Shown piece by piece: positions 53,111 to 62,621 of a DNA stretch of 64,000 nt. Made by a program: the position numbers and the translations under genes. Within the stretch, counting starts at the first letter, position 1, and each line of letters starts with the position of its first letter. The DNA is taken from positions 1,054,001 to 1,118,000 of the forward strand of contig NZ_RJWA01000001.1 of assembly GCF_003762835.1 (NCBI RefSeq), given 5' to 3'. The notes under the pieces are model-generated. The model did no database searches and was not told the origin of the DNA. It saw only the letters and a list, made by a program, of their open reading frames with translations. The DNA is from Micromonospora sp. HM5-17 (GTDB lineage Bacteria; Actinomycetota; Actinomycetes; Mycobacteriales; Micromonosporaceae).

Positions 53111-54115
53111 TCAGAAGAGGTTGGCGCTGCAGCCCACCGAACCGCGGCCCGAGCGGGTGTCGACCTGCTTGCCGTCGAAAATGATTCGGCAGGTCATCTC
53201 CCCGGAACCGCTGCGGCGGGTGGCGACGAGCGTGGCGAGGGGCACGCCCGAGGGCACGTCGACCGCCACGCGGAAGGGAAGCTCCTTCTCAGCTGCCACG
53301 GGCGTCCGGCCGTTCTCACTCGGCAGGTAGTTGATGAAGGCGCTCCCCTCGCCGTCGATCTCGTAGACCAGCCGGCCGTCGCCCGAGCCGCCTCCGGAAT
53401 CCCCCGGAGCGGCCGTCCCACCGGTCCCGTCCGTCCCACCGGTGCCCTCGGCCGAACTCTCCCCCGAAAGGTTCTGGTAGAGGAAGTAGCCGCCCACGGG
53501 GCCGCCGACGCAGCAGAGCAGCAGGACCACGACGAGCGCGATGATCAGACCGGTCTTCGACTTCTTGGCCGGGGCGGCGGGCTGGCCCGGTTGTCCGGGT
53601 TGCCCCGGCGGGTATCCGGGACCGGACGGGTATCCGGGCGCACCCGGACCGCCGGGCTGGTACGGCTGGTACGGCCCGCCGGCGGCCGGCGGTTGCGGCG
53701 TCGAGGGCTGGGGCGGCCCGTACCCCCCGGTGCCCGGGTTCGGCGCGCCGCTGGTGGGGTATGGCGATGCCGGGGTGCCACTGGTCGGGTAGGCCGCGGC
53801 CGGCGGGCTGCCCGTCGGGTACGGCGGAGTGGCCCCGGCGCCGGTGGCCGGCGGCCCGTACGGGTTGGGCGGCGGTGGGGTCGGCGCGTAGGGCGAGACC
53901 ACCCCGCCCTGGCCGTACGTCGTCGGCTGGGGCGGGCTGAAGCGGGTCGTCGGGGCGTTTTCCTCCTCGGCGCTGCCCGGCGGGGATGGCGGGGCGAACT
54001 TCGTGGTCGGTGCGTTCTCCTCGTCGGAGGATCCCGACCCGGATGCCGGGCCGAACCGGGTGGTCGGCGGCTCCGGCGCGGACAACGGGTCGTAGGAGGA
54101 AGGAGGCTCGGTCAT
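53111..54115 (-). CDS. Pro/Gly-rich membrane protein with MmpS-like C-terminal domain
   Basis: A 334-residue protein. Residues 1 to ~185 are Pro/Gly/Tyr-rich with repeated units such as ENAPTTKF/ENAPTTRF and GQPGQPGQP. One membrane helix at ~190-215 (TGLIIALVVVLLLCCVGGPVGGYFLY) leads to a Gly/Ser linker and a C-terminal β-domain (LVYEIDGEGSAFINY; LPFRVAVDVPSGVPLATLVATRR; MTCRIIFDGKQVDTRSG) resembling MmpS transport-accessory domains. The function is unknown. It has the same plan as the larger protein at 11.6-14.1 kb. Confidence 0.82.
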   Translation of the reverse strand: MTEPPSSYDPLSAPEPPTTRFGPASGSGSSDEENAPTTKFAPPSPPGSAEEENAPTTRFSPPQPTTYGQGGVVSPYAPTPPPPNPYGPPATGAGATPPYPTGSPPAAAYPTSGTPASPYPTSGAPNPGTGGYGPPQPSTPQPPAAGGPYQPYQPGGPGAPGYPSGPGYPPGQPGQPGQPAAPAKKSKTGLIIALVVVLLLCCVGGPVGGYFLYQNLSGESSAEGTGGTDGTGGTAAPGDSGGGSGDGRLVYEIDGEGSAFINYLPSENGRTPVAAEKELPFRVAVDVPSGVPLATLVATRRSGSGEMTCRIIFDGKQVDTRSGRGSVGCSANLF

Positions 54116-59423: not shown

Positions 59424-60587
59424 GTGAGCGCTCGACGGACGGCGACCGGGCTCATCCCGGCGCAGCGCCAGCCCGCGCGTCGCTTCGTGGGACGTTCCGG
59501 GCTGCTCCGGGTCGCCGGCATCATCGGCGCGGCGGCCGGGGTGGCGGCGGCCGGAATCGCCGCCGGAGTCGCCGCCGAGCGGGCCGTGGTCCGGCGCTCC
59601 CGGGCCACCCCCGACGACCCGTACGCGGACGAGCCCTTCGGCGCGCTGCCGTACGACGAGTCGTGCACGATCACGACCGCGGACGGCACGGACATCCACG
59701 TCGAGCTGGTCGGCCCACCCCCCGGACCGGATCGGCCGACCCTGGTCTTCGTGCACGGCTTCTGCCTCGACATGGGGACCTTCCACTTCCAGCGGCGGGT
59801 CCTCACCGAGCGGGGCGAGGACCGGATGGTCTTCTACGACCAGCCCGGACACGGCCGCTCCGGCCGGCTGAGGTCGGGGGAGTACCAGCTCGCGGCCCTC
59901 GGCGAGACGCTGCGCGCGGTGATCGACCGGACCGTGCCGACCGGCCCGCTGGTGCTGATCGGACACTCCATGGGCGGTATGACGATCATGGCGTTCGCCG
60001 AGCGGTACCCGGAGATGTTCGGCGACCGGGTGGTCGGCACGGTGTTGATGGCGACCTCGGGCGGGCTGGTCGCGGAGACGAGGTTCGGCCTGCCGGCGAT
60101 CATCGCCCGGGCCGGTGCCCCACTGTTGCCGGTGGTCGACAACGCCACCCGGCTGACCGGCAGCGTGCTCGACCGGGCCCGGCGGGCGTCGGCCAACCTC
60201 GCCTGGCTCCTCACCCGCCGGTACGGCTTCGGCAGCCCGTCACCGAGCCCGGCGCTGGTCTCCTACGTGGAGCGGATGAACGCCCGGACCTCCACCGAGA
60301 CGGTGGCCCGCTACCTGCGTACCCTCTATTCGCACGCCCGCTACCCGGCCCTGGCCGCGCTCCGGAACGCCCCCACGCTGGTCATCGTCGGTGAGCGGGA
60401 CATGATCACACCGGTCACCCACTCCGAGGAGATCCTCCGCTGGCTTCCCGACGCCGAGTACGTCAAGGTGCCCGACAGTGGGCACGTGGTGATGCTGGAG
60501 CACGCCGACGAGGTCAACACGGCGTTGCTGGACTTCCTCGACCGGTTGCCGGGACGCGCGACGAAGGCGGTCGGTTCGGATGACTGA
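59424..60587 (+). CDS. Alpha/beta hydrolase with N-terminal hydrophobic segment
   Basis: A 387-residue α/β hydrolase. A hydrophobic Ala/Gly-rich segment near residues 30-55 (VAGIIGAAAGVAAAGIAAGVAA) may anchor it in the membrane. The core has the oxyanion HGFCLDMGTFHFQ, the nucleophile elbow IGHSMGGMT, the acid in VGERDMITP, and the His in PDSGHVVMLEH. GTG 59424 is chosen; GTG 59397 is also in frame. The substrate is unknown. Located between alr and tsaE, as in many actinobacteria, and overlaps tsaE by 8 bases. Confidence 0.88.
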   Translation: MSARRTATGLIPAQRQPARRFVGRSGLLRVAGIIGAAAGVAAAGIAAGVAAERAVVRRSRATPDDPYADEPFGALPYDESCTITTADGTDIHVELVGPPPGPDRPTLVFVHGFCLDMGTFHFQRRVLTERGEDRMVFYDQPGHGRSGRLRSGEYQLAALGETLRAVIDRTVPTGPLVLIGHSMGGMTIMAFAERYPEMFGDRVVGTVLMATSGGLVAETRFGLPAIIARAGAPLLPVVDNATRLTGSVLDRARRASANLAWLLTRRYGFGSPSPSPALVSYVERMNARTSTETVARYLRTLYSHARYPALAALRNAPTLVIVGERDMITPVTHSEEILRWLPDAEYVKVPDSGHVVMLEHADEVNTALLDFLDRLPGRATKAVGSDD

Positions 60588-61080
60588 CGCCCTGCGCGAC
60601 GCGGCGCTGGTCCGCGACCTGCCCACCGTGGCGGACACCCGGGCGTTCGGGCGTCTCCTCGCCAACCTGCTCCGCCCCGGCGACCTGCTGGTGCTGACCG
60701 GGCCGCTGGGGGCCGGGAAGACCGTGCTGGTGCAGGGAATCGCCGCCGGGTTGGCGGTTGTCGGCGACGTGACGTCGCCGACGTTCGTGATCGCCCGGGT
60801 GCACCGGCCGGACCGCGCCCGGGGCGGCCGGGTCACGCTGGTGCACGCCGACGCGTACCGGCTCGGGGACGCGGCGGATCCGCGGGCCGAGATCGACGAC
60901 CTCGACCTGGACGCCTCGGTGGAGGAGTCGGTCACCGTGGTCGAGTGGGGTGAGGGGATGGTCGAGCAGTTGGCCGACGCGCATCTGCGGATCCGGCTCG
61001 ACCGGCGCGACGACGACACCCGACGGGTCACGCTGACCCCGGTCGGCGGTGACTGGGCCGAGCGGCTCGCCGGGCTCTGA
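60580..61080 (+). CDS. tsaE: tRNA threonylcarbamoyladenosine biosynthesis ATPase
   Basis: TsaE is the P-loop ATPase of the bacterial t6A machinery (with TsaB, TsaD and TsaC). The 166-residue protein has Walker A TGPLGAGKTVLVQGIAAGL, GDVTSPTFVI, and VHADAYRLGD, with VVEWGEGM downstream. tsaB and tsaD follow in the same direction. Confidence 0.95.
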   Translation: MTDALRDAALVRDLPTVADTRAFGRLLANLLRPGDLLVLTGPLGAGKTVLVQGIAAGLAVVGDVTSPTFVIARVHRPDRARGGRVTLVHADAYRLGDAADPRAEIDDLDLDASVEESVTVVEWGEGMVEQLADAHLRIRLDRRDDDTRRVTLTPVGGDWAERLAGL

Positions 61081-61165: not shown

Positions 61166-61852
61166 ATGACGTTGGATCTTCCCGCCCTGCTGCCCCCGGC
61201 CTGGCGTACGGCGCTGGAGCCGTATCTCGACCCCGCCGCCACCGCCGCGCTGGGCGAGTTCGTCGCCCGGGAGTACGAGACCCAGACCGTATTCCCGCCC
61301 CTGGAGGACCTCTTCGCCGCGTACCGGCTCTGCGGGCCGGAGCAGACCCGGGTGCTGATCCTTGGCTAGGACCCGTACCACAAGCCTGGCCAGGCACACG
61401 GCCTCAGCTTCAGCGTCCGCGACGGCGTTCCGGTCCCGCCGTCGCTGCGCAACGTCTTCAAGGAACTCGCCGACGACCTGGGAGTGCCGGTCTCCCGCAG
61501 CGGCAACCTCACCCCCTGGGCCCGCCAGGGAGTCCTGCTGCTCAACGCGGTGCTGACGGTGCGGCAGGCCAGCCCGGGCTCGCACGCCAACAAGGGCTGG
61601 GAGGACTTCACCGACGCCACGATCCGGGCCCTCGACGCCCGCGCGGAACGGGTGGTCTTCCTGCTCTGGGGCGGGTACGCCCGGAAGAAGGCGGCGCTGG
61701 TCACCAACCCGGTGCACGTGGTGCTGGAGGCGGGGCACCCGAGCCCGATGAACCCGCGGGGCTTCCTCGGCAGCCGCCCGTTCAGCGCCGCCAACAAGGC
61801 CCTGGCCGACGCCGGTCTCCCCACCATCGACTGGGACCTGACGGCCGGCTGA
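61166..61852 (+). pseudogene. ung: Uracil-DNA glycosylase interrupted by an in-frame TAG in the active-site motif
   Basis: The frame from ATG 61166 (GAGAGG 6 nt upstream) encodes a family 1 uracil-DNA glycosylase of 228 codons. A TAG at 61367-61369 is codon 68, exactly where the Gln of the catalytic GQDPYH motif is expected: the flanks read RVLILG and DPYHKPGQAHGLSFSV. Everything downstream stays in frame and keeps NLTPWARQGVLLLN, FLLWGGYARKKAAL, and AGHPSPMNPRGFLGSRPFSAAN. CAG to TAG is one C-to-T change. As read, only a 67-residue fragment without the active site is made. The options are a recent null mutation, a sequencing error, or readthrough; TAG is used as a normal stop by many genes here. 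Confidence 0.9.
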
Positions 61853-61907
61853 CGTCGGTGCCGGCCGTGCCGGGGCGGGTCCCGCGAGCCGGTCCGGGCC
61901 GCCCGGT

Positions 61908-61913
61908 TAGGGT
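61908..61913 (+). promoter_or_regulatory. -10 hexamer TAGGGT, leaderless type
   Basis: TAGGGT lies 6 nt before the tsaB GTG at 61920. Confidence 0.5.
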
Positions 61914-61919
61914 GCCTGT

Positions 61920-62621
61920 GTGCTCGTACTCGTGCTCGACTCGTCGACTCCGGCGGTGACCGCCGCACTGGCGGAGATCACCGCCGACGCTGTCGTCCCG
62001 CGTGTCGAGCGGAGCAGGGTCGACGCCCGCGCCCACGGCGAACTCCTCGCCCCGCAGGTGGCCGAGGTGCTCGCCGAGGTCGGGATCCGCCCGGCCGCGC
62101 TGGCCGCCGTCGTCGCCGGGGTCGGCCCCGGTCCGTTCACCGGGCTCCGGGTCGGCCTCGTCACCGCCGCCAGCATGGGCCAGGTGCTCGGCATCCCGAC
62201 GTACGCCGTCGGCTCGCTCGACGCCCTCGGCCACGCCGCCACCCGTCCGGGCCCGGACGCCGCGCCCGAGGCCGGCCCGGTGCTGGTCGCGACCGATGCC
62301 CGGCGGCGCGAGGTCTACTGGGCGGTCTACGACCCGGCCGGTGGGCGGCTGGTCGGGCCGGCGGTCGACGTCCCCGCCGTGGTCGCGGAGCGGGCCCGCG
62401 AGCAGGGCGTCCGGGTCGCGGTCGGCGAGGGCGCCCGACGATACGCCGACGTCCTCGGCCTGCCGCTCCGGGGCGGGCTGGACCACCCCCCGGCGTACGC
62501 CCTGGCGGAGCTGGCGGCCGAGCGGATCCGGGCGGGGGCGCCGGGTGACCGGCTGACCCCGCTCTACCTGCGCCGTCCGGACGCCGTGGCGGCGACCGGA
62601 CGCAAGCCGGTGCTGCGGTAG
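61920..62621 (+). CDS. tsaB: tRNA threonylcarbamoyladenosine biosynthesis protein TsaB
   Basis: TsaB is the inactive ASKHA-fold partner of TsaD in t6A synthesis. The 233-residue protein begins MLVLVLDSSTPAVTAALAEI and has VAGVGPGPFTGLRVGLVTAASMGQVLG and VLVATDARRREVYWAVYD. The start is a leaderless GTG. It is followed by rimI and tsaD, the usual cluster. Confidence 0.95.
   Translation: MLVLVLDSSTPAVTAALAEITADAVVPRVERSRVDARAHGELLAPQVAEVLAEVGIRPAALAAVVAGVGPGPFTGLRVGLVTAASMGQVLGIPTYAVGSLDALGHAATRPGPDAAPEAGPVLVATDARRREVYWAVYDPAGGRLVGPAVDVPAVVAERAREQGVRVAVGEGARRYADVLGLPLRGGLDHPPAYALAELAAERIRAGAPGDRLTPLYLRRPDAVAATGRKPVLR

Follow-up and report, generated by a model that had tools for sequence, protein, structure and literature searches.

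An amber codon at the catalytic-motif glutamine of uracil-DNA glycosylase in Micromonospora sp. HM5-17: probably a very recent nonsense mutation, possibly a base error

The ung gene of Micromonospora sp. HM5-17 raises a simple question: how is an in-frame amber codon to be explained when it stands exactly at the glutamine of the GQDPYH motif of a family-1 uracil-DNA glycosylase? The gene lies in a 64,000-nucleotide stretch of the genome, the whole of which was analyzed and is called the window here, in the gene order tsaE, ung, tsaB, and then rimI and tsaD. The features that the argument needs are the following, in window coordinates.

60580..61080, + strand: tsaE, intact, upstream of ung.
61166..61852, + strand: ung (family-1 uracil-DNA glycosylase) frame, 228 codons with one interruption; scores above the cut-off of NCBIfam ung models and matches uracil-DNA glycosylases (UDGs) in the PDB.
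61366..61370, + strand: CTAGG; relatives with GGC ahead of CAG read CCAGG here, a putative CCWGG-type methylation site.
61367..61369, + strand: premature TAG at the Gln position of GQDPYH, codon 68 of ung.
61920..62621, + strand: tsaB, intact, downstream of ung, beginning 67 nt after the ung stop.

The original prediction described a 228-codon ung frame, open but for the TAG at the motif glutamine, in which the later motifs LLLN, HPSPMN and GFLGSRPF are preserved. Both statements are borne out by the sequence, where the stop stands in the context CTT GGC TAG GAC CCG and the rest of the frame is open. With X at the stop position, the product scores 237.9 bits against the NCBIfam model TIGR00628 (cut-off 185.75). 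In its full-length homology, its HPSP and other motifs and its PDB matches, the gene is a family-1 uracil-DNA glycosylase; it departs from that family in having no unbroken GQDPYH within one open frame, the predicted product being truncated at 67 residues. Such a fragment would end before the catalytic aspartate and would be without the HPSP loop, and judging from the motifs no family-1 activity would be expected of it. The gap between ung and tsaB (61853-61919) varies among genus-mates, match coordinates putting it at approximately 130 nt in L009, 210 nt in L011, 800 nt in L010 and 870 nt in L007.

The explanation that we favor, with a probability of roughly 0.62 and with the base known from the assembly, is that a very recent and real nonsense mutation inactivated ung. 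The stop is absent from all relatives examined. At the equivalent codon, 109 of 109 related loci (L006-L114) have CAG, a set that includes at least two duplicate pairs: over the three genes compared, Plantactinospora endophytica (L035) and P. mayteni (L045) do not differ from genus-mates L010 and L011 (distance zero), by which the genus would appear to be Plantactinospora. CAG in the relatives implies a single C-to-T change, as had been claimed from the window by itself. The codon ahead of CAG is GGT and not GGC in five of the six genus-mates. More broadly, the ung query matched 171 of 201 genomes; among the matches listed, 13 genomes besides the strain's own were flagged with a stop, and on inspection all 13 stops were normal terminal stops. 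The gene has the features of a nonsense pseudogene, a recent loss-of-function allele with one stop in an otherwise conserved frame, and nothing distinctive sets it apart from that class except that the affected gene happens to be a repair gene. Among the titles listed in the literature search, none dealt with a naturally occurring ung nonsense allele from this group.

Some observations on the relatives stand on their own. In the 14 loci inspected (the 13 flagged and that of G113), GQDPYH was found in eight and GQDPYF in three, the latter being the ung genes of L177, L178 and L179 (genomes G015, G102 and G118), and the motif in the other three (L170, L171 and L180) was missed by both motif patterns used. 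The ung of G113 (L181, contig C1) is apparently frameshifted just ahead of GQDPYH, and another PF03167 match of the same genome is split into two adjacent pieces. The ung of L169 (G036, contig C1) has a proline-rich insertion between the two catalytic motifs with its frame intact.

The age of the lesion can be bounded from the remainder of the gene. There were ung matches in all 109 loci, and the 108 that passed a length filter were aligned with the strain's own sequence to give 109 rows. At the 103 columns that are invariant in the other 108 rows, equivalent to 226.7 nonsynonymous sites, the strain's protein deviates at the stop alone, and therefore ung was under selection until recently. If ung had been neutral over the whole of its own branch, 34-68 changes would be expected at these columns, given an assumed own-branch dS of 0.15-0.30, which is about half of the pairwise dS to genus-mates (0.42-0.49), with a margin. 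By a 95% Poisson bound, neutral evolution can account for no more than about 4-9% of the branch. A long-dead pseudogene is ruled out by this conservation.

Between the strain and its genus-mates, dN comes to 0.065-0.084 in ung, 0.111-0.130 in tsaE and 0.080-0.107 in tsaB. Counting against a recent lesion, the corresponding dN/dS of ung (about 0.14-0.18) reaches or exceeds the upper end of the range between mates (about 0.05-0.17); this rise looks lineage-wide rather than specific to ung, because the strain's lineage is also high in tsaE (0.26-0.33 vs 0.15-0.34 between mates) and tsaB (0.16-0.26 vs 0.07-0.22). At nearly invariant columns the strain has no deviation in tsaE, none in ung and one in tsaB, and its end branch in weakly supported protein trees has a length of 0.092 (ung), 0.15 (tsaE) and 0.18 (tsaB). 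The ung tree places the strain, again with weak support, outside its genus-mates.

The catalytic-motif position of the stop is striking and yet needs no special explanation. Counting the TAG itself, a single C:G-to-T:A change separates 11 ung codons from a stop, so neither the place nor the kind of the lesion is improbable: about one in 11 such nonsense changes would fall on the motif glutamine, if all are equally likely. Ten of the 11 codons lie upstream of HPSP, and nearly all of the other targets would likewise truncate the protein before that motif.

If ung was inactivated, uracil repair is probably reduced and not absent, with other members of the UDG superfamily retained. The genome has four PF03167 matches. 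Besides ung, one is UdgX-like (TIGR03914, 237.9 vs a cut-off of 189.95), one is Mug-like (G/U mismatch-specific glycosylase NF007570, 185.2 vs a cut-off of 144), and the fourth, matched by family-4 and UdgX models below cut-off only, is a gene that we take from its motifs to be UDGb-like. The suggestion that another UDG family member might compensate thus has candidates in this genome, one of them below its model cut-off. A compensatory gain of these genes is not supported: the set does not look acquired to replace Ung because all four PF03167 score classes, assigned in the genus-mates by score band and not by family search, are present in five of the six genus-mates. The sixth, G002 (96% complete, 440 contigs), has no match in the UDGb class; it has three PF03167 matches, G005 has five, and the other four genus-mates have four each. 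Loss of ung seems to be tolerated in the family, as G048 (99% complete) has no match to the ung query and four other PF03167 matches. Loss of the NucS mismatch system as a background to the lesion is ruled out by a NucS match in the genome.

The closest likeness is to mycobacterial ung knock-outs with UdgB as backup, which share the high-GC actinobacterial setting and the retained UDGb-like gene; here the allele is natural and known from sequence alone, and there are Mug-like and UdgX-like genes as well. Extracts from PMC4938668 cite mutation rises in M. smegmatis of 8.4-fold for ung, 2.1-fold for udgB and 19.6-fold for the double knock-out, 56-fold for the double in another study, and, for ung loss in other bacteria, rises of about 5-fold (E. 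coli) and 2-fold (B. subtilis). In M. tuberculosis, ung loss raised mutation 3.57-, 5.32- and 8.31-fold across three assays according to extracts from PMC8011731, which put udgB at 4.3-22-fold and the double at 22-97-fold, likewise across three assays. If mycobacteria are a guide, C:G-to-T:A mutation would be expected to rise several-fold here, as in a moderate mutator. Such a rise is plausible and may be partly buffered by the UDGb-, Mug- and UdgX-like genes; the last is doubtful as a turnover backup because UDGX-type enzymes are described in extracts from PMC10776899 as cross-linking to DNA. Should the base be real, the strain would offer a naturally arisen ung null that has yet to decay, in a genus of which most members examined carry the same three genes, and it would allow cover for Ung by UDGb-, Mug- and UdgX-like enzymes to be tested in a non-model high-GC actinomycete.

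The serious rival to a real mutation is an error of sequencing or assembly, with CAG as the true codon and a functional ung, which we consider somewhat unlikely. The otherwise conserved gene suits it, as does a genome of 6.17 Mb in 51 contigs with 96.07% completeness and 1.44% contamination (the six genus-mates have 8.3-9.8 Mb). It also gains from other interrupted frames. We scanned coding potential across 1.264 Mb of the strain's genome, made up of the window and 60 further stretches, and across 0.8 Mb of the genus-mate G001; with 40-codon flanks and thresholds of 8, 5 and 3 there were 3, 8 and 15 matches in the strain and 3, 7 and 10 in G001. The three strain matches at threshold 8 are ung, L195:10890(-) and L206:8967(+), and the five added at threshold 5 are, judging from their peptides, gene ends or junctions. 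Two of the threshold-8 matches in G001 are ordinary gene junctions and one is an ambiguous frame, again from the peptides.

At L195:10890 (G000:C1, - strand), a single in-frame TAG follows a 2119-codon open frame of a large protein whose peptide has a receptor-like end; six orthologues (L263-L268) have GAG, which makes the change a G-to-T transversion. At L206:8967 (G000:C23, + strand), a single in-frame TAG lies near the start of what its peptide suggests is an NTPase-like regulator; the closest orthologue (L275, G005) has CAG and more distant ones, L276 aside, have other residues, Glu among them. A variant scan with 25-codon flanks gave two matches, L195:10890 and window position 53790, and missed ung and L206. 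At window 53790 (+ strand) there is a TAG inside a Gly/Pro-rich frame that may be the antisense of another gene.

Two other frames with a single TAG where relatives are open are what a modest base-error rate would give, and three cases in the strain compare with no clear interrupted gene in G001, in small numbers and with peptides read by eye. Since 2.34% of single-base changes give a stop, a random substitution error rate of about 1.3e-4 per base would be enough to produce three stops in the roughly 1.02 Mb of called genes. Also counting against the favored reading, a C-to-T excess is not apparent (GC content 72.4% in the strain vs 72.5% in G001, and one of the three stops from G-to-T). Against error, frameshift signs are few (five candidates, unverified, in 464 kb). 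No systematic miscall shows at CCWGG either: the observed/expected ratio of CTWGG is 0.98 in the strain and 1.00 in G001, and neither a C-to-T miscall nor a mutational hotspot has left a compositional trace there. If real, the three stops would amount to a nonsense lesion in about 0.3% of genes (three frames, 918 called genes), and single nonsense lesions at approximately that frequency would be ordinary biology too. The ung stop is one of a few nonsense lesions in the sequence sampled, be they real or base errors, and the scan data do not separate the two. Most simply, one of several repair enzymes with overlapping roles has been lost very recently, or seems so through a base error, and no new mechanism is called for.

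Within the favored reading of a real nonsense mutation, the origin of the base change is a separate matter. Spontaneous substitutions are in general most often C:G-to-T:A, and Ung was presumably still active at the time of the change. A "self-inflicted" null, arising through the very uracil that Ung removes, is one possible but unproven route. A different source would be deamination of 5-methylcytosine, which Ung does not repair, at a CCAGG methylated by the strain's own C5-methyltransferase. The resulting T:G mismatches are repaired by Vsr, and the genome does have a C5-methyltransferase gene (C1:378808-380040) directly followed by a vsr gene (C1:380460-380648), the pair lying at L187:8769-10879; the recognition site of the methyltransferase is not assignable from Pfam, PADLOC or PDB sequence matches. 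Both stops inferred to derive from CAG (ung and L206) sit in C-TAG-G, and C-CAG-G accounts for 1642 of 8483 CAG codons (19.4%). We nevertheless regard this origin as doubtful: the two cases were noticed after the fact, the CAG at L206 comes from one orthologue, GGT in most genus-mates leaves the ancestral Gly codon of ung in doubt, and the frequencies of both CCWGG and CTWGG match those of G001.

Readthrough of UAG, whether by a suppressor tRNA, by a near-cognate glutamine tRNA or by recoding, would mean that full-length Ung is still made. Apart from the stop, each of the three interrupted frames is open, and in each the stop is TAG. UAG is a first-position variant of CAG, so near-cognate insertion of glutamine would restore the wild-type residue. 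That all three are TAG is unremarkable, however, as TAG is the outcome of 66.6% of the single-base changes that create a stop. Among the 51 Rfam tRNA matches of the genome (about 96% complete), all of them covered by ARAGORN, no CUA anticodon is reported, and so the amber suppressor envisaged earlier did not appear; PylS likewise has no match in the same genome. Among the genes called, TAG terminates 169 of 918 in the strain (1.264 Mb) and 110 of 584 in G001 (0.8 Mb), and it is an ordinary stop codon here, neither depleted as a terminator nor shared at this site by any of the 109 related loci. On these grounds recoding, a suppressor tRNA and pyrrolysine are not supported, and readthrough in any form is highly improbable. 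Of the original alternatives (a lesion that is recent, recoded or an error), the first and last agree with the conservation of ung and the CAG of its relatives, and the second is set aside. Slimmer still is the chance that leaky, low-level reading of UAG by a near-cognate glutamine tRNA yields some full-length protein from ung and the two other TAG-interrupted genes, in which case readthrough would set the dosage of Ung and hence the C-to-T mutation rate.

The tRNA complement has one peculiarity of its own. No long-arm tRNA-Leu(CAA) is reported among the 51 tRNA matches, and two class-I-sized tRNAs (75-76 nt) with the anticodon CAA are called tRNA-Leu without a long variable arm (L141, G000:C45:8593-8972, and L149, C45:51964-52036), one of them inside an extra Glu-Leu-Gln tRNA cluster.
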